IMG/VR virus record: IMGVR_UViG_3300009686_000009
Location: 1 to 36,371 of that record
Direction: 5' to 3' (one strand)
DNA length: 36,371 nucleotides
DNA from: a virus
Shown here piece after piece: positions 15,771 through 35,253 of this stretch (position 1 is the first letter of the stretch; every line of letters begins with the position of its first letter). The notes under the pieces were generated by a model, which made no database searches, was not told the DNA's origin, and worked only from the letters and a program-made list of their open reading frames with translations. The position numbers and the translations under genes were made by a program.

Positions 15771-16184
15771 ATGGATATATTAATTATAAATAATAGAAAA
15801 ACTATACTTGATTGGGATAGTAAATTATCAAAACAAAAATATATTAGCAACATGGAAGCAGTTGCTAAAAAGATAAATTCAACTTCAAATTTTAAGAAAG
15901 TATTTATAATTGTGGCTGGTAGTTTTATGTTCTTTGAAACTGTTATGGCCGCTACTGGGAATCCTCTTAGTCAAGCAGAAGTGCTTGGTAAAACAATTTT
16001 TTCAATAGCTATGAAAATAGGTAAATATTTAGTATTAACGATGGCGGCAGTAGATATTACAAAGTCACTCATGCAATCAGATACAAAAAGTGTACCTAAA
16101 ATCATGATACATTACGTTTTTGCCTATGCAGCTTTAAAATCTTTACCATGGTTCATAGATTTTATTGATACTATGTTTAAGTAA
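15771..16184 (+). CDS. VirB2/TrbC-like pilin-type membrane protein
   Basis: 137 aa, ribosome site CGGAGG 6 nt upstream. A basic N-terminus (about 1-42) precedes a signal-like segment FKKVFIIVAGSFMFFETVMA ending in AxxA/MAA near residue 61. A likely mature part of about 75 aa follows, with two hydrophobic helices (GKYLVLTMAAVDITKSL and MIHYVFAYAALKSLPWF) separated by a short polar loop QSDTKSVPK. This long leader and two-helix layout is that of VirB2/TrbC pilins. It is the first gene of a three-gene operon ending in a large ATPase, matching virB2-B3-B4 order. The pilin call is inference from topology and context. Confidence 0.5.
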   Translation: MDILIINNRKTILDWDSKLSKQKYISNMEAVAKKINSTSNFKKVFIIVAGSFMFFETVMAATGNPLSQAEVLGKTIFSIAMKIGKYLVLTMAAVDITKSLMQSDTKSVPKIMIHYVFAYAALKSLPWFIDFIDTMFK

Positions 16185-16197
16185 AGGGGGTATATAT

Positions 16198-16641
16198 ATG
16201 TTTTTTAGCAAACTGCTATTAGCAGCACCAACCGAAATAGAAAAAATGCTATTAGAGCAACAAGATACTTTAAGAAAATTAGATATATTAAGCAGAGAAG
16301 TAAAAAAAATAAAAGATAATCCAACACCTGAAGTAATAAAAAATATGTATGATGCTCCAAATACTTTGCAAAATCCTATATTTGATTTATCTAACAATAC
16401 AATAGTAGAAAAAGCTGGAAGATTCTTTGATTATATGGATTCAACAATGAATTATTTAACACACCCAGTATTAATATTTAATGCAATTGCTGGAGCAAGT
16501 TATTGGATATGTGGGATAATTGCAATTGCTGGAGTACTATATTATATTATAGGGCATAAGAATGGCTTAAAATGGACAGGAGGAAGTCTACTAGGATATA
16601 CACTTATTCAAGCAATTAATTATGGGTTGAATTTATTATGA
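16198..16641 (+). CDS. Small membrane protein, VirB3-position
   Basis: 147 aa from ATG 16198, chosen because AAAGGGGG lies 8 nt upstream. The first ~60 residues are a charged, coiled-coil-like helix (EIEKMLLEQQDTLRKLDILS). Two transmembrane helices follow (about 100-120, YWICGIIAIAGVLYYIIG; and about 128-146, GGSLLGYTLIQAINYGLNLL). It sits between the pilin-like gene and the ATPase and overlaps the ATPase start by 4 nt (ATGA), so the two are probably made together. Sequence identity to VirB3 cannot be judged by eye. Confidence 0.5.
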   Translation: MFFSKLLLAAPTEIEKMLLEQQDTLRKLDILSREVKKIKDNPTPEVIKNMYDAPNTLQNPIFDLSNNTIVEKAGRFFDYMDSTMNYLTHPVLIFNAIAGASYWICGIIAIAGVLYYIIGHKNGLKWTGGSLLGYTLIQAINYGLNLL

Positions 16642-18986
16642 AAATATTGCAGAAAATAAACCCAATTTATACTTATTTAAAGTTGACACCAGACACTTCA
16701 ATTAGAAATTATGATAGCAGCAACATTGCTCGCACTATAGCAAAGATGTATAAAACCATTACCGAACAAATAAGGAGAGAGGAAAATAATAAACATTGGT
16801 ATAATTTTAAATTTGTGATTGAAACTTCTGTTAAGTGTAGTTATTTAATAGATATAACTAAAGACAATGTATACTTTTACTTCATAGTACCAAGCAAATA
16901 TGTAAATAATATAAGAGAGAAGATCACCGCCACATGGAAAAAAGTATCTATAGAGGAAGTTACTGAAATTAAAGATTTTTCACAAGATGCTCTAAAATAT
17001 CAATTGAATTATAAAAAAGAAGATGCTTTTAGTCTAGCAATTAATAAGACTAGCAATGAACCACTAAATTCAATATTCAGCGTAATTGATGTAATGCAAG
17101 ATAGTGACCGCATAGGCATATTCTACAACTTTATACCATGTAGCCAATTACCCTTTAAAAAAGAATATGAGGATACTATGAAAAAGGTTAAAGACAATAA
17201 GCCTATTGATAAAGAAAAGTTAAATAAAAAATATATATTTAAAATGTCGATACTTTATTTATTAGACTTTTTAGACATAATTAAAGAGGTGCTAGTGGAC
17301 TTTACTGGTGGATTAGTTAATGCACCTAACAAAGATTTAAGCTTATTAGAGGTAGCAGCAGAGTTATTAAGCAATAACAAAAAACTATCTTTAGCAACTA
17401 AAAAGAAAAAGGAAACAATTATAATAAATACACAAATGCTAGTCCTGTCTGAAAGCATAGATACGTCTAGAAAGAGTAGTAATGCTATAAGTGTATGTCA
17501 ATCTTATAAAGCCTTGGAAGAAGATAAGGATGAGGGAAATGAATTATTATATAAAAAAGTAAAAGCTAATAATGTTTTTTATATAAATGATTTAAAGGTG
17601 GCTGGAGTAGATATAAACAAAGTGAGCGTAGAGGAATGCCAAAACTTTATCCAACTCCCAGGTAGAGATTTACTAAATCAATATAAAATTAAAAAAATTG
17701 ATACGTTAGAATCATTGGTACCAACAGAACTACAAGCAGGAGTTATGTGTCTGGGAAATGTAACTTATAAAGGGATGGCGGCTAGAGCATTTCTAAGTAA
17801 TGATAAAGAATTTAAAAATCTTACTTTATGCTTAATAGGTCCTACTAGGTCAGGGAAAACTACTTTAATATCTAATCTATCAAGGGATAGTATAATGGCT
17901 GGAGAATGTACCATATTATTTGATTTTTGTGGCAACTGTGAATTAAGCAATGATGTAAGTAAGGTTTTTGAAAATGTACTAGACATAGATTGTAGCAATG
18001 AATTGACCTTACAAGGGCTAGGATATAACGAAATAGTTCCTAGCACAAATACAGTCTTTGAAGTATATCGTTGTGCTAAAGCTAAAACAAGTCAGTTAAT
18101 GACATTAGTGAATACATTAAGTGATGATGAAGAATTAAAAGCGAGAATGGAAAGATATTTAGAAGCTGCAGCTATAATAACATTTATTGAAAATGGAGCT
18201 ATTAAAGATGTATTCAAGTTATTACAAGATCACATGTTAAGAAAACAATTTATTGATAATGTACCTAAAAATCAATTTGAAAATTTAGAAGAATATATTT
18301 TAGCACTAGAAGAATTAGACGAGTGGAGCAAAGCAACCAAAGATAAACCAGCAGAACTAATAGGAACTAAACTAAGTTTTGTACAAGGAATATTAAATAG
18401 AGTTAATAGACTTAAAAGTAATACTTATATGGAACTAATGTTAAAAAAAGATTGCAGTAACAATATAAATTTAGTTGATGAAATACAGAAAGCACAATTA
18501 ATTTGTATAAGAATGCCTGAAATAATGTTTTCTACAGAACAGGAGAAAGACATATATTGCACATATTGGATTACTAAAATTTGGGGAGCTTTGCAAGTAA
18601 GAAAGTGGAATATTCCAGATGCTAAAGATAGGATAAAACTTAATATAGTATTTGATGAATTATATCAGGTGCCATCATGCCAAAGCTTTTTAAAATCTAA
18701 ATTAAGCCAAATTGCTAAGTTTGGAGGTAAACCAATAATATCATGCCATTATTTGGGGCAGATATCGAATATAAGAAATGAATTGAAAGCAGCTAATAGT
18801 AGTTATATGTTATTGCAAGGATGCGACAAGGATAATTTCAAGGAGTTAAAAGAGGAACTAAGTCCATACGAATTAGAGGACCTATTAAATCTTAAAAGAT
18901 ATGAAAGTCTTAATTTGATAAAATATGAAAATGGATGGAGTAAATTTATAAGCAAGTTGCCACCACCAATTAAAACAAGCAAATAA
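16638..18986 (+). CDS. HerA/FtsK-superfamily ATPase of type IV secretion type (VirB4/VirD4-like)
   Basis: 782 aa. Residues 1 to about 330 form an N-terminal region with a conserved-looking stretch (KFVIETSVKCSYLIDITKDN, then FIVPSKYVNNIREKI) seen in conjugation-type ATPases. Walker A is LIGPTRSGKTT (G401-T408, K407). Walker B is LNIVFDELYQ (D673, E674). A Gln-type sensor run IISCHYLGQISNIRNEL follows. The C-terminus (LNLKRYESLNLIKYENGWSK, then KLPPP) resembles the end of coupling-protein/TraD-like ATPases. There is no transmembrane helix at the N-terminus, so membrane docking would depend on the preceding two small membrane proteins. It probably powers movement of DNA or protein across the envelope. 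No relaxase is visible nearby. Confidence 0.75.
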   Translation: MKILQKINPIYTYLKLTPDTSIRNYDSSNIARTIAKMYKTITEQIRREENNKHWYNFKFVIETSVKCSYLIDITKDNVYFYFIVPSKYVNNIREKITATWKKVSIEEVTEIKDFSQDALKYQLNYKKEDAFSLAINKTSNEPLNSIFSVIDVMQDSDRIGIFYNFIPCSQLPFKKEYEDTMKKVKDNKPIDKEKLNKKYIFKMSILYLLDFLDIIKEVLVDFTGGLVNAPNKDLSLLEVAAELLSNNKKLSLATKKKKETIIINTQMLVLSESIDTSRKSSNAISVCQSYKALEEDKDEGNELLYKKVKANNVFYINDLKVAGVDINKVSVEECQNFIQLPGRDLLNQYKIKKIDTLESLVPTELQAGVMCLGNVTYKGMAARAFLSNDKEFKNLTLCLIGPTRSGKTTLISNLSRDSIMAGECTILFDFCGNCELSNDVSKVFENVLDIDCSNELTLQGLGYNEIVPSTNTVFEVYRCAKAKTSQLMTLVNTLSDDEELKARMERYLEAAAIITFIENGAIKDVFKLLQDHMLRKQFIDNVPKNQFENLEEYILALEELDEWSKATKDKPAELIGTKLSFVQGILNRVNRLKSNTYMELMLKKDCSNNINLVDEIQKAQLICIRMPEIMFSTEQEKDIYCTYWITKIWGALQVRKWNIPDAKDRIKLNIVFDELYQVPSCQSFLKSKLSQIAKFGGKPIISCHYLGQISNIRNELKAANSSYMLLQGCDKDNFKELKEELSPYELEDLLNLKRYESLNLIKYENGWSKFISKLPPPIKTSK

Positions 18987-18998
18987 ATATCAATTTAA

Positions 18999-19033
18999 AA
19001 GGCACTTAGAGTAAATTCTAGGCGCCTTATTTC
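18999..19033 (+). terminator. Terminator after the secretion-like operon
   Basis: AAGGCACTTAGA and TCTAGGCGCCTT form a 12-bp stem with one mismatch and one wobble, followed by ATTT. The U-tract is short, so efficiency may be moderate. Confidence 0.6.
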
Positions 19034-19065
19034 ATTCGATATAATAAGTGTTATATTGAATGAAA
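19030..19065. repeat. dif-like 15-bp inverted repeat (11-6-11 core)
   Basis: Arms of 15 bp with a single G-U-type mismatch flank the 6-base centre TAAGTG. The inner part reads ATTCGATATAA (19034-19044), TAAGTG, TTATATTGAAT (19051-19061). This is the 11-6-11 geometry of Xer/dif sites. The right arm matches the classic XerD half-site TTATGTTAAAT at 9 of 11 positions, and the left arm ends in ATAA as dif does. It could be a site for Xer-mediated integration or multimer resolution, or a regulator's operator. No U-run follows. Confidence 0.5.
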
Positions 19066-19179
19066 GTGTTAAAAGGTACAATCACAAGGGGGATATATAA
19101 AGACAAGCCTTATAGGTCAAATTTGAGCGTTGAGTGTTTATAATTAGAAAAAATTTTAGTTTTACATTGAAAATACATA

Positions 19180-19232
19180 CATATTACAAATATATTAATG
19201 TTATACTATTATAAACATATTACAAATATATT
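19180..19232. repeat. Two promoter-proximal copies of a 17-bp repeat
   Basis: CATATTACAAATATATT occurs at 19180-19196 and again at 19216-19232 (36 nt start to start). An extended -10 (TG-T-TATACT, TATACT at 19202-19207) lies between them, and the second copy runs up to the ribosome site of the HTH-RHH gene. Diverged copies occur inside that gene at 19440-19462 and 19497-19519. Autoregulatory operators or a partition-type centromere are the likely roles. Confidence 0.65.
19199..19207 (+). promoter_or_regulatory. Extended -10 promoter of the HTH-RHH regulator
   Basis: TG at 19199-19200, one base, then TATACT at 19202-19207. The -35 region is occupied by the first repeat copy and has no clear TTGACA. 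The ribosome site GAGGTG follows at about 19235. Repeat copies on both sides suggest repression by the encoded protein. Confidence 0.5.
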
Positions 19233-19244
19233 CGTGAGGTGTAA

Positions 19245-19808
19245 ATGATGGAGAGAGTACAATTTGATAAACTGGAAATTGCAGAGCAGCTGCAGTATAT
19301 AAATCAGAATTTAAAAACAAGCACACTAACAAACATATGTGAGGAAATTGGAATAGGTAGGACCACAATAAGGGATAGATTTTACAAAGAATCGTATATA
19401 TTTGATAAATACTTGAAGCAGTATATAAAAGATAGTGAATATAAACATAATACAAGTGTATTACAAGTTGCTGCAACCAAGTTACCGCCAGGAGAATATA
19501 AACGTAATACAAGTATATTCAACTCAAAAGATGCCCAAAATAAGATTTTAGATATATTAGAAAAACATGATAACATACATGAAATGTTGGAATGGTTTAA
19601 CAAGCAAAAAAACGTCATAGAAGTAGATCTAAATGAATTGAAAATTGATAATGCTAATCTTCAGGGAGAAATAAAAGTTACTACTGTAAGATTATATAAT
19701 GATGTTTGGGAGCAATTTAGAACTTTTATGGGCGAATATAGTGAATTTAAAAGTATGGATTTAATAAGTATGGCATTGTTAGAATATATGCACAAATATA
19801 AAAAATAA
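19245..19808 (+). CDS. HTH plus ribbon-helix-helix DNA-binding protein
   Basis: 187 aa. The N-terminal part (about 15-47, TLTNICEEIGIGRTTIRDRF) is a helix-turn-helix. The C-terminal part (about 140-185, EIKVTTVRLYNDVWEQFRTF, then MDLISMALLEYMHKY) is a CopG-like strand-helix-helix. Between them two peptide repeats EYKHNTSVL (Y66) and EYKRNTSIF (Y85) are encoded by the DNA repeats at 19440-19462 and 19497-19519. Such HTH-RHH fusions are plausible plasmid partition, copy-control or transfer-regulator proteins. GAGGTG lies upstream of the start; an adjacent ATG one codon later is equally possible. Autoregulation is inferred from its repeats. Confidence 0.65.
   Translation: MMERVQFDKLEIAEQLQYINQNLKTSTLTNICEEIGIGRTTIRDRFYKESYIFDKYLKQYIKDSEYKHNTSVLQVAATKLPPGEYKRNTSIFNSKDAQNKILDILEKHDNIHEMLEWFNKQKNVIEVDLNELKIDNANLQGEIKVTTVRLYNDVWEQFRTFMGEYSEFKSMDLISMALLEYMHKYKK
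19440..19519. repeat. Two intragenic copies of the regulator's DNA repeat
   Basis: The copies at 19440-19462 and 19497-19519 share TATAAAC(A/G)TAATACAAG and lie 57 nt apart (19 codons). The first contains a perfect inverted repeat TAATACA-AG-TGTATTA (19448-19463). They are recognisable versions of the promoter repeats at 19180 and 19216, so four related sites spread over about 340 nt. Confidence 0.6.
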
Positions 19809-28196: not shown

Positions 28197-29732
28197 ATGT
28201 ATGAAGATTATTTAAAACATGTAAATCTGAATATAACTGAACCAATAATGGAATTTGTTAATGAAGAGGTATTTGGAGATTCAGAATATCTATTTATAAA
28301 AAAAGAAGAGGGAATAAATAAAGCTTATTGTAGTAAGTGCAAAAATGAATTTGATGTTGAAGATATAAAACATAATGAGGATGGAAGATGTCCATCATGT
28401 GGGGCTATTGTAAGGGCTAAACTACTCAGATATGGTAGAAAGAAATGTACTAATGATAGCTGCTTTTATTACTTTGAAAAATCAGTTATAGACCCTGATG
28501 TGGTAATTTGCAAAGGATATTACACAGTAAAAAATTATAATACAGATTACAAAAACCCCAAATTAACATGTAATTTATATGCAATTTATATTTTTGAAAA
28601 CAAAAAATCCACTATGTTTAAAAAAAATTACTGGAATAATTGCTGGGATATGACGAGTTCTATATTTGATTTTAATCAAGGTTGGATGGCATCTAAAATG
28701 TGTTATTGCTCTTTTGAAAGTATAGAAGAATCTATTAGAGGTACAAAATTTCAACACATACCACATAAACCATTTCAACAACATTTTAGTATGGTAAAGC
28801 TCTTTGGAGAGTATTCAGTACATCCGTCTATTGAGTATCTAGTAAAAGAAGGGTTTGAAGATTTAGTTGCTAGCAAGTTAAGAGGGTACGCAACGCATAA
28901 ATCTATAAACTGGAATGGCAAAAACATATTTAAAATTCTAAAAATAAACAAATTGGAGTTAAGAGAAATAAAAGCTAAAAACATAAATGTTACTTTTCAA
29001 TTTTTAAAAGTATTTCAGGATGCTAAAAAGCAAAAATGGGGAATTACAATAGAAGAATCTATAAAAATTGCTACGACATATTCGTCTTATTTTGAGGAAC
29101 TAAAAAAGATAACAGAGTATAGCTCTATAAGAAAAATCTTAAAGTATTTATCCAAGCAACTTATTAAATTTAACGGCTCAGAGAAAGATAAACATTATTG
29201 CAGGGAAGATAGTGTGCTTATTAAACTAAAAGATTATATAGCAGATTGTAAATTGCTTGGAATGGATATTAACAGAGAACAAGTACTATTTCCAAAGGAC
29301 CTGTACACTATGCATCAAAACACCATTAAGCAAATTAAAATAAATAAAAATGAAAAGTTTGATACAGGTATTAAAAATAGAGTTAAATACTTAGAAAAAT
29401 ATATATTTGAATATAATGATCTTATTATAAGACCGGCCATGAGTTCAACAGAAATGGTAGAAGAGAGTGAGGCATTAAGTCACTGTCTTGCTAGTCACTA
29501 TACAGAATCTTATTCTAATGGAAAAACTAACATATTATTTGTTCGCAAAGTTTCTGAACCAGATAAGCCTTACTACACAATAGAGGTAAAAAAGGATATT
29601 GTAATCCAAGTTCATGGCAAGAATAATCGTTCCGCAAGTGATGATGTTAAAGAATTTATAAAAGTATTTACAGATGAAAAATTAGCCAAGAAAAAACGAA
29701 TAATCAAAAACAGAATATCAATTTCGGCTTAG
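28197..29732 (+). CDS. PcfJ-like protein
   Basis: 511 aa. An N-terminal zinc finger (CSKC then CPSCGAI, about residues 45-70) is followed by a long helical region and the PcfJ hallmark near residue 415: MSSTEMVEESEALSHCLASH then YYTIEVKKDIVIQVHGKNNR. PcfJ proteins occur with PcfK in conjugative plasmids and phages; the molecular role is unknown. Length is in the family range. AAAGGGAG ribosome site is before the ATG. Confidence 0.88.
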   Translation: MYEDYLKHVNLNITEPIMEFVNEEVFGDSEYLFIKKEEGINKAYCSKCKNEFDVEDIKHNEDGRCPSCGAIVRAKLLRYGRKKCTNDSCFYYFEKSVIDPDVVICKGYYTVKNYNTDYKNPKLTCNLYAIYIFENKKSTMFKKNYWNNCWDMTSSIFDFNQGWMASKMCYCSFESIEESIRGTKFQHIPHKPFQQHFSMVKLFGEYSVHPSIEYLVKEGFEDLVASKLRGYATHKSINWNGKNIFKILKINKLELREIKAKNINVTFQFLKVFQDAKKQKWGITIEESIKIATTYSSYFEELKKITEYSSIRKILKYLSKQLIKFNGSEKDKHYCREDSVLIKLKDYIADCKLLGMDINREQVLFPKDLYTMHQNTIKQIKINKNEKFDTGIKNRVKYLEKYIFEYNDLIIRPAMSSTEMVEESEALSHCLASHYTESYSNGKTNILFVRKVSEPDKPYYTIEVKKDIVIQVHGKNNRSASDDVKEFIKVFTDEKLAKKKRIIKNRISISA

Positions 29733-29749: not shown

Positions 29750-30808
29750 ATGAAAGAACTTACTAATATCAATACAACGCGTATAGCAAGAACAGCTGAT
29801 TTAATAGCAGCTGAAATAACCAATATAAAAGAACAAACTAAAAAGATGGTGATTTATAACTCAATTGAGATTGGAAGGAGACTTATCGAAGCAAAGGAAA
29901 TGATTAGTCATGGTGATTGGGGAAAATGGCTAGAAAACTCAGTTAGTTATTCTCAAAGCACAGCAAATAATCTGATGAAGATATTCAATGAATATGGTGC
30001 AGATCAACTTACATTTTTCAACGAAAATGCAAAATCCCAAGCGCTTGGGAATTTGAGCTATACGCAGGCAGTTGCACTACTTGGAATACCTGCAGACGCT
30101 AGAGAAGAATTTGTACAAAACAATGATATTGACTCTATGTCAACAAGAGAATTACAGAAAGTCATAAAGGAAAAACAAGATTTAGAAGAAAAATTAAAAG
30201 ATTCAATAGAATTTAATAAAAAAGCTCATGAATTAGCGAGTCTAAGGGGAGAGGAAAGAGACGAAGCTCTTAAAACTTTAGAATCTGCACAGAAAGCTGC
30301 AATTGAAAAATCAAATCAAGTTAAAAGTTTAAATGATGCTCTTCAATTAGCAAAGGATAAACTAGAAAAGGAAAAAGAAAACTCCAAAGAAGAAATTGCA
30401 AAGCTTCAGACCTTCATTGGAGAAGCTAAAAGCGTTGGGGATGATGAAGAGGTTGAAAGATTGAAAACATCACTCCAGGAGTTACAAGACGATGTAGATA
30501 GTTCAGCATTGAAGATTGATGAACTTGAAGCTCAGTTAAAGGCCAAGCCTGTTGATGTAACAGAAACAATTATCGAAAAGATACCTGAGGAAGTTGAGAA
30601 AGAACTCCAAGAGCTTAGAAAAAAGGCTAACCAAAGCAGTGATCAGTCAGTTATAAAATTCAAAATATACCATAAGGAACTTCAAGAAAAGTTTATAGAG
30701 CAATTAGGATTACTGGAAGAAATTAAAAAGACTAGTCCTGAACTTCATGGAAAGTGTAAAAATGCTATTTCAGAACTTTTAAGCAAAATGGCAGAAAGAC
30801 TTCAATAA
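29750..30808 (+). CDS. DUF3102 protein with long coiled coil
   Basis: 352 aa. The N-terminal part (about 1-130) is the DUF3102 pattern: RTADLIAAEITNIKEQTKKM, EIGRRLIEAKEMISHGDWGK, WLENSVSYSQSTANNLMKIF, with the following LSYTQAVALLGIP. A coiled coil of about 150 residues follows (about 135-300), then a helical end. It is common on Firmicute phages and plasmids and probably binds DNA or acts as a ParB/KilA-like accessory, but this is not established. Confidence 0.85.
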   Translation: MKELTNINTTRIARTADLIAAEITNIKEQTKKMVIYNSIEIGRRLIEAKEMISHGDWGKWLENSVSYSQSTANNLMKIFNEYGADQLTFFNENAKSQALGNLSYTQAVALLGIPADAREEFVQNNDIDSMSTRELQKVIKEKQDLEEKLKDSIEFNKKAHELASLRGEERDEALKTLESAQKAAIEKSNQVKSLNDALQLAKDKLEKEKENSKEEIAKLQTFIGEAKSVGDDEEVERLKTSLQELQDDVDSSALKIDELEAQLKAKPVDVTETIIEKIPEEVEKELQELRKKANQSSDQSVIKFKIYHKELQEKFIEQLGLLEEIKKTSPELHGKCKNAISELLSKMAERLQ

Positions 30809-34647: not shown

Positions 34648-35253
34648 ATGCAGAAAAAAAGACCAGCAAAACCAATTAAGGATCTTCAATTAGTACTAGA
34701 TTTTCAAGATTATTTAAAGCATAAGAATGAAAGAGACTATATGATGTTTTGTCTTGGTATAGTAACAGGATATAGAGCTGGAGACTTAGTTACTTTAAAA
34801 ATAAGGGATGTAGCAATGGCATTAAGAAATGGTTATTTTTTAATTTTAGAGGGTAAAAAAGTTAATACAAGAAACATAAGAAAAGAAAATATAAAACCTC
34901 GTGAAGTTGTAATAGTATCCAAGCTTAGTAAAATGTTAAAAGATTACATTAAAGATAAAAATGATTATGAATATATGTTTGTAAGTAGAAAAGGTGAAAA
35001 TCAACACATTGCGGTAAGTCATGTAAGTAGAATACTTGGAGAAGCTGGTAAGGTTTTTGGCCTAAGTAATATAAGCGCTCATTCCATGAGGAAAACGTAT
35101 GCTTATACAATATACGTTACAAGCAAGTTTGATATTGTAGCAGTAAAAGAAATGTTAGGACATTCTAGTATAGAAATAACAAAGAGATATTTAGGCCTAG
35201 ATCGTGAGACATATGATAAATATTCAGAACCTTTAAATGACCTACTAAGATAG
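34648..35253 (+). CDS. Short tyrosine recombinase (catalytic domain only)
   Basis: 201 aa. All catalytic positions are present: R43 in GYRAGDL, K70/K71 in LEGKKVN, H145 and R148 in HSMRKT, H172 in LGHSSIEITKRY, and the nucleophile Y181. The N-terminal core- and arm-binding domains of phage integrases are lacking. Recombinases like this are often found just before HNH and terminase genes in Firmicute phages. It may resolve multimers or act on a Xer-like site rather than drive classical integration. Its substrate is not known; the dif-like repeat at 19030 is one candidate. Confidence 0.85.
   Translation: MQKKRPAKPIKDLQLVLDFQDYLKHKNERDYMMFCLGIVTGYRAGDLVTLKIRDVAMALRNGYFLILEGKKVNTRNIRKENIKPREVVIVSKLSKMLKDYIKDKNDYEYMFVSRKGENQHIAVSHVSRILGEAGKVFGLSNISAHSMRKTYAYTIYVTSKFDIVAVKEMLGHSSIEITKRYLGLDRETYDKYSEPLNDLLR

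Follow-up and report, generated by a model that had tools for sequence, protein, structure and literature searches.

A Xer-type palindrome in a probable plasmid prophage and its counterpart in the terminus half of Clostridiaceae chromosomes

Introduction

What does a near-perfect palindrome do between two genes of a tailed double-stranded DNA phage? The question is raised by a virus record of 36,371 bases (called the window, by which the whole analysed stretch is meant), in which a first-pass annotation had picked out a dif-like Xer site and had offered it as an attachment or resolution site. Our answer is tentative and is held at a probability of about 0.45: the palindrome may be a Xer-type site for a recombinase of the host, probably keeping a plasmid prophage monomeric.

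Results

The palindrome in the window

The repeat is intergenic, with a 782-aa gene ending at 18986 on one side and a 187-aa gene on the other, and separates the lysis/cargo block from the repressor block. The features concerned are as follows.

19030-19065, plus strand: 15-6-15 inverted repeat, the main feature
19034-19061, plus strand: 28-bp Xer-type core ATTCGATATAA TAAGTG TTATATTGAAT, arranged 11-6-11, in which the spacer (TAANNG) sets the orientation
18999-19030, plus strand: separate GC-richer hairpin 3' of the 782-aa gene, resembling a terminator that lacks a T run
19062-19125, plus strand: non-coding stretch common to the window and the relative G002 (two sequences only), a possible accessory region
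19171-19232, plus strand: two copies of the repeat CATATTACAAATATATT directly before the 187-aa gene, a possible operator or centromere
19245-19808, plus strand: 187-aa gene, phrog_2727, with an HTH-like N-terminus and an RHH-like C-terminus (a guess from the sequence)
34648-35253, plus strand: 201-aa short tyrosine recombinase consisting of the catalytic domain only, a candidate enzyme (PF00589, E 5.9e-23)

The sequence at 19030-19065 reads TTTCATTCGATATAA TAAGTG TTATATTGAATGAAA, and 14 of its 15 arm pairs are complementary; the near-perfect 15-bp inverted repeat with a 6-bp centre and an 11-6-11 core, as originally described, was thus found again. The right arm does match 9 of the 11 positions of the E. 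coli XerD half-site (in the form that we take to be its sequence), the complement of the left arm matches 8 of 11, and the left arm ends in ATAA as had been stated. With a length of 28 bp, two inverted 11-bp half-sites, a 6-bp centre, ATAA/TTAT inner ends and conservation as a unit in relatives, the core has the make-up of a dif/Xer site. Across the window it is the sole repeat with 15-bp arms, a spacer of 6 and at most one mismatch, a kind of repeat that appeared in 2 of 200 dinucleotide-preserving shuffles of the window. At up to 3 mismatches the 28-bp core occurs once in the window and in none of 100 shuffles. BLAST with 701 or 66 bases around the site returned nothing relevant among phages or plasmids.

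Three consecutive genes upstream (15771-18986) encode two small proteins with hydrophobic stretches and the 782-aa P-loop protein, which shows weak TraD/TrwB similarity (phrog_5156) and has relatives in SPO1-like phages, TP-84 and the Terrisporobacter phage TPDSL_ph2; together they look like a module for secretion or conjugation carried by a phage. An oriT was considered on account of what we take to be a resemblance of the site to a MOBV-type nic region, and was rejected because family members share TAANNG but not the spacer's GTG, and because G002 is without secretion-like genes.

The phage, its 187-aa gene and its short recombinase

About 430 bases precede TerL in the window, and several close relatives start in the same way. 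It encodes a portal, a Clp-type protease, a phage capsid, tail genes, an endolysin, a repressor and Rha, and further a replisome organiser, an IstB/DnaA-like ATPase and an SSB; the early/replication region also holds DUF3102 and PcfJ-like genes (29750-30808 and 28197-29732). A Pfam scan of 33 distinct window ORFs matched PF00589 in the 201-aa gene alone, in agreement with the earlier claim that a short tyrosine recombinase is the sole one in this genome, and the window has no full-length integrase, as would be expected of a phage-plasmid. The nearest relatives of the 201-aa enzyme (62-63%) belong to C. difficile phages, several of them with annotated ParA, and phiCD38-2 is named in the annotation of one such record.

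Relatives of the 187-aa protein were found in 68 of 72,556 plasmid records and in 6 large clostridial phages, phiCDIF1296T among them. All of these plasmids, including pCD630, come from Clostridioides, Paraclostridium, Terrisporobacter or Clostridiaceae, so that the window carries a putative maintenance gene of the plasmid type, another trait of phage-plasmids. Further relatives are encoded on the plasmid-like stretches L297, L300, L303, L305 and L311. In viral_contigs, a single-protein scan found none and an alignment scan found G002 only, while the alignment scan of genome_contigs gave none. The structure model of the 187-aa protein was unusable (mean pLDDT 37). According to a published account, phiCD38-2 is maintained as an extrachromosomal plasmid and phiCDIF1296T is kept extrachromosomally in lysogens (PMC6127314). 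On these grounds the window phage is likely a plasmid prophage.

Copies of the site in other phages

Among 13 records reached via TerL, a direct search for the site gave weak matches only. The relative G002 (34,192 bases) carries CATTCAACATAA TAAAAG TTATATGGAATC ahead of its copy of the 187-aa gene (64% identity) and behind a hairpin similar to that at 18999-19030. The gene farther upstream is unrelated to that of the window, although the site and the 187-aa gene are kept. Between the two phages 23 of 28 core positions are identical, about the same as in the aligned flanking non-coding DNA (81%). The core is no better kept than its flanks; hence this pair alone does not single it out, which counts against core-specific conservation. 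In the TerL relative G013, arms of ATTCAACATAA and TTATGTTGAAT with a 10-bp spacer lie within a longer near-perfect hairpin (L112:724-755).

The pattern ATTCNANATAAN6TTATNTNGAAT matched 30 stretches in viral_contigs, versus 12 for a control with C and G swapped, both lists containing near-duplicate contigs (e.g. L128/L129, L134/L151, L127/L152 and L143/L153, and L160/L168 in the control). The spacer TAANNG, on either strand, was present in 13 of the 30 real sites and in 0 of the 12 control sites. Sites in phages are mostly intergenic and often fall in packaging or head regions, i.e. TerS-TerL, TerL-portal or a split minor-capsid gene (genes named by eye). L142 and L145 have the site at the same TerL-portal gap, and L155 and L156 are 97% identical over 34 bases within surroundings that otherwise do not align.

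In L129, L132 and L150 a minor-capsid gene is apparently split in two with a Xer-type site in the gap, and in L132 a GIY-YIG-like endonuclease gene follows the split gene. Copies located in a split minor-capsid gene, or beside GIY-YIG/zinc-ribbon homing-type endonucleases (assigned by eye), had brought a group I intron or structured RNA into consideration, a candidate that was rejected; Rfam gave no gathering-score match in 14 sources and only chance-level matches in 351 bases of the window.

Could the palindrome instead work as a hairpin, of RNA or of extruded single-stranded DNA, and be a processing or termination signal, for instance? The window site folds well (-15.5 kcal/mol, z -6.4), as does the chromosomal copy described below (-23.5 kcal/mol, z -9.5), and in chromosomes the 4-6 bases flanking the core on either side can mostly pair. 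However, one phage copy folds at just -8.5 kcal/mol, so that hairpin formation is strong in certain copies and weak in others; besides the lack of an Rfam match, a terminator scan accepted nothing at the site or at the hairpin at about 18999-19030. Core positions 5 and 7, which the search pattern leaves free, vary without compensation in most phage copies (the remaining arm positions are dictated by the pattern), as expected of protein half-sites. The outcome named in advance as damaging to a Xer reading, namely relatives that keep only a hairpin while the arms change, was therefore not seen. Moreover, the gene upstream of the chromosomal site varies between species and stands in either orientation, which means that transcription is not always alike and favours an element acting as DNA over one acting as RNA. 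On balance a role as a hairpin is improbable.

The 201-aa enzyme was matched in just 2 of 15 site-bearing viral records, many of which are fragments, and was for this reason rejected as the sole enzyme for the site. In the prophage G017 (49,954 bases), a PF00589 gene with a 417-aa frame, i.e. a full-length integrase, lies at the left end, and the site lies mid-prophage between TerL and portal. It follows that phages with another way of integrating make use of the site or at least retain it; judging from this arrangement, the site does not act as attP in G017.

The chromosomal counterpart and its RHH gene

With the spacer fixed as TAANNG, 18 stretches were obtained from genome_contigs, one from a cyanobacterial MAG and the remainder from Clostridium, Clostridiaceae or Oceanirhabdus. 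In 16 of them the site is followed, about 110-410 bp downstream and in the same orientation, by the start of a protein of about 295 aa that combines a long coiled coil with an RHH motif at its N-terminus; the exceptions are L174 and L180, the latter being a second C. lacusfryxellense site. This RHH plus coiled-coil protein (L171:3816-4709 and orthologs) is encoded in the terminus half of Clostridiaceae chromosomes. Within the genus of G029 the ortholog is present in 16 of 17 genomes, and a perfect ATTCAATATAA TAAAAG TTATATTGAAT precedes it in 16/16. Across Clostridiaceae genomes the strict pattern was found in 22 of 206, versus 3 of 206 for the reversed pattern. The window core is identical to the common chromosomal form in these genomes at 25 of 28 positions. 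Because the same kind of site is found in the terminus half of Clostridiaceae chromosomes, the phage site may mimic a host site or share ancestry with one. Together with the geometry, the ATAA/TTAT ends and the conserved orienting spacer, this match bears out the designation of the repeat as a dif-like Xer site.

A chance palindrome is very improbable. The sequence is AT-rich and the control arms also matched 12 stretches, but conservation next to orthologous genes, rarity in shuffles, and the spacer and genome counts relative to the controls all contradict it.

Family-wide, 30 RHH loci were read, of which 27 are at least 49% identical. An 11-6-11 palindrome lies 186-432 bp upstream of the RHH gene in 24 of these 27 orthologous loci; of the remaining three, L353 has a weaker palindrome at 542 bp, L356 has one at 1,362 bp, and L357 has none. 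No upstream palindrome was found at the three more distant RHH loci (34-36% identity). In the RHH loci the two arms change together (ATTCA/TGAAT, ACTCA/TGAGT, ACTAG/CTAGT).

Given so tight a chromosomal tie, it is a serious though less likely alternative that the RHH protein binds the site and no recombination takes place. The site would then be an operator, a centromere or a terminus anchor, and phages and plasmids would carry it to use or disturb the protein of about 295 aa, or would encode an equivalent such as the 187-aa protein. Apart from the 24 of 27 orthologs, the co-varying arms and the 16/16 closest loci, this is favoured by plasmid G040:C2 and contig G043:C113, each of which combines the site with an RHH paralog, and by the window itself, where the site also precedes a gene of DNA-binding type. 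Against it, a home-made profile finds no such RHH gene in the window, G002, G017, G021 or G023, just 2 clear sites and one weak one were seen beside 11 distant RHH paralogs, and an operator would not usually have a fixed and asymmetric 6-bp spacer. The plasmid pCALKR01, which has an RHH relative, was found to lack such a site.

The chromosomal counterpart also bears on phage attachment, in which Xer recombination would insert the phage at the chromosomal copy, in the manner of CTXphi or LME-1 at dif. The 25 of 28 common bases are in its favour, as are the location between the lysis/cargo and repressor blocks, the usual place of attP, and a lysin and a holin-like gene abutting the chromosomal site in the MAG stretch L176. 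Yet chromosomal TAAAAG copies number one per genome, the window spacer TAAGTG differs from TAAAAG at two of six positions, and L176 shows an apparently ordinary chromosomal gene about 3 kb on (judged by eye) rather than a whole prophage. Among the orthologous chromosomal loci that were read, no prophage is flanked by two copies of the site, and G017 combines an integrase of its own at one end with an internal site. Use for attachment therefore has little probability, and of the two roles first proposed this one found no support. The other, resolution, stays plausible in view of the plasmid-type 187-aa gene and the lack of a full-length integrase.

Terminus position and a second palindrome

In all five complete chromosomes the site lies in the terminus half, at 44-52% of the chromosome from dnaA: 50.2% in G028 and 51.8% in G039 (both computed), and 52.4% in G038, 48.3% in G040 and 43.9% in G041 (all three by arithmetic). 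The GC-skew shift, where a dif would be expected, is 60-145 kb off in the two chromosomes sampled. In G039 the flip falls between the 5-kb bins starting at 2,972 and 2,977 kb, 145 kb from the site, and in G028 near 3.39-3.40 Mb, about 60 kb from it. Dimer resolution thus probably has its main site elsewhere than at the RHH-linked chromosomal copy. This copy had been considered as the main dif until finer GC-skew sampling put the flip at a recombinase gene with another palindrome.

At the flips of G039 and G028 there is indeed a XerC/D-like tyrosine-recombinase gene; XerD-like genes occur in 5/5 genomes, all below the curated cut-off. In G038, G039, G040 and G041 a perfect palindrome, GTCGTGAAA-TGTAAG-TTTCACGAC, stands beside a 332-aa tyrosine-recombinase gene, and no palindrome like it was seen at the recombinase gene of G028. 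The dif sites of XerS and XerH are linked to their recombinase genes, and by the same linkage this palindrome may be the main dif in these Clostridium genomes. The stretches L237, L239, L240 and L241 show it beside the recombinase, and the G039 copy (C1:2,978,023) is exactly at the GC-skew flip. A dif of the kind that we take as B. subtilis-like, searched at up to 3 mismatches, was absent in 10/10 site-carrying genomes tried.

In phages L134/L151, L137 and L156 a copy of the second palindrome accompanies the first kind of site at a distance of about 115-155 bp, near terminase genes. The window has no copy of it near its site.

Sites on plasmids

In G038, G040 and G041, at up to 2 mismatches, 5 sites were found on non-chromosomal contigs versus 17 on 13.8 Mb of chromosome, the total plasmid length being inexact since non-chromosomal contigs without matches are unlisted. 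Plasmid G040:C2 has two sites 68 bp apart near its RHH paralog and a recombinase of about 204 aa. L304, L305, L306 and L307, all from G032, have pairs at the same 68-bp spacing with different spacers. Taken with L296, these are Xer-type pairs exactly 68 bp apart, of two spacer types, on plasmid-like or chromosomal Clostridium stretches.

Discussion

Two inverted 11-bp half-sites that are alike, a 6-bp spacer that gives direction, a single site and a plasmid-type neighbour gene together fit monomerisation by a host enzyme. The phage would most likely persist as a circular plasmid prophage, and a Xer-family tyrosine recombinase of the host (less likely the phage's own 201-aa enzyme) would act on the site, recombining the two directly repeated copies of a dimer into monomers before division. 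It is this recombination, the identity of its enzyme and the monomeric outcome that we infer, whereas the site and its family, the conserved spacer, the chromosomal counterpart and the neighbouring gene of plasmid type are observed. Several findings speak against monomerisation: G017 is an integrase-bearing prophage that has the site and no obvious need for plasmid monomerisation, 12 loci of plasmids or phages where the 187-aa family is encoded showed no such site, and the 201-aa enzyme is scarce in site-bearing records.

For the chromosomes, a further view is possible but doubtful. The 28-bp Xer-type palindrome tied to the RHH/coiled-coil gene may be a second terminus-region element beside the recombinase-linked dif, where it would organise or process the terminus by serving as an anchor, for SMC off-loading or as a second Xer site; copies would be spread over diverse phages and plasmids, some phages having mimics of both sites within about 155 bp.

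The window site resembles the bacterial dif of XerC/XerD in its 28 bp, its 11-6-11 layout, its ATAA...TTAT inner ends and the terminus-half position of the chromosomal copy. It differs from dif in that both arms are alike, that the chromosomal copy lies before an RHH gene and away from the GC-skew flip, and that the ten carrying genomes tried lack the B. subtilis-like form at up to 3 mismatches. Archaeal dif has the core GATATAA-N6-TTATATC, very similar to the window site. A single recombinase, as with XerS, XerH, XerL or archaeal XerA, would explain equal arms; in these Clostridium genomes, however, the recombinase-linked site is the other palindrome, GTCGTGAAA-N6-TTTCACGAC, and the enzyme for the window site is putative. 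Archaeal dif/XerA is treated in PMC2958812. The single-recombinase dif of Legionella XerL was revealed by a mobile element, LME-1, which carries a dif mimic and integrates there (PMC9765430). Like such integrating elements (CTXphi and TLCphi besides LME-1), the window phage carries a mimic of a host Xer-type site; unlike them, it is a tailed double-stranded DNA phage, and no integration at the site was seen.

Plasmid cer/psi and the Acinetobacter pdif are Xer-type sites on plasmids, at one or few per replicon. Some Clostridium contigs have comparable tandem pairs at a 68-bp spacing, accessory proteins or modules being putative here. MatP/matS and XerD-dependent SMC unloading act at the terminus; by description they are alike in having an RHH/coiled-coil protein or a Xer site in the terminus region, and unlike in that there is one site here.

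In the part of the dif/Xer literature on Clostridium, phages and phage-plasmids that was covered (including PMC5357621, and with subscription papers mostly outside it), the site is undescribed, which is weak evidence of absence. One dif survey failed for C. perfringens and C. beijerinckii (PMC3025954). For the chromosomal counterpart and its RHH gene, in our view the most interesting part of the results, no description was found in the literature searched.

Resolution and segregation of clostridial chromosomes and plasmid prophages are little described. The sequence comparisons suggest that the phage borrows a chromosome-handling system of its host, and its site points to a testable chromosomal element with a linked gene. 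It also led to a candidate main dif next to a recombinase gene of its own, and to phages in which copies of both sites occur, and it could serve as a marker for clostridial phage-plasmids.
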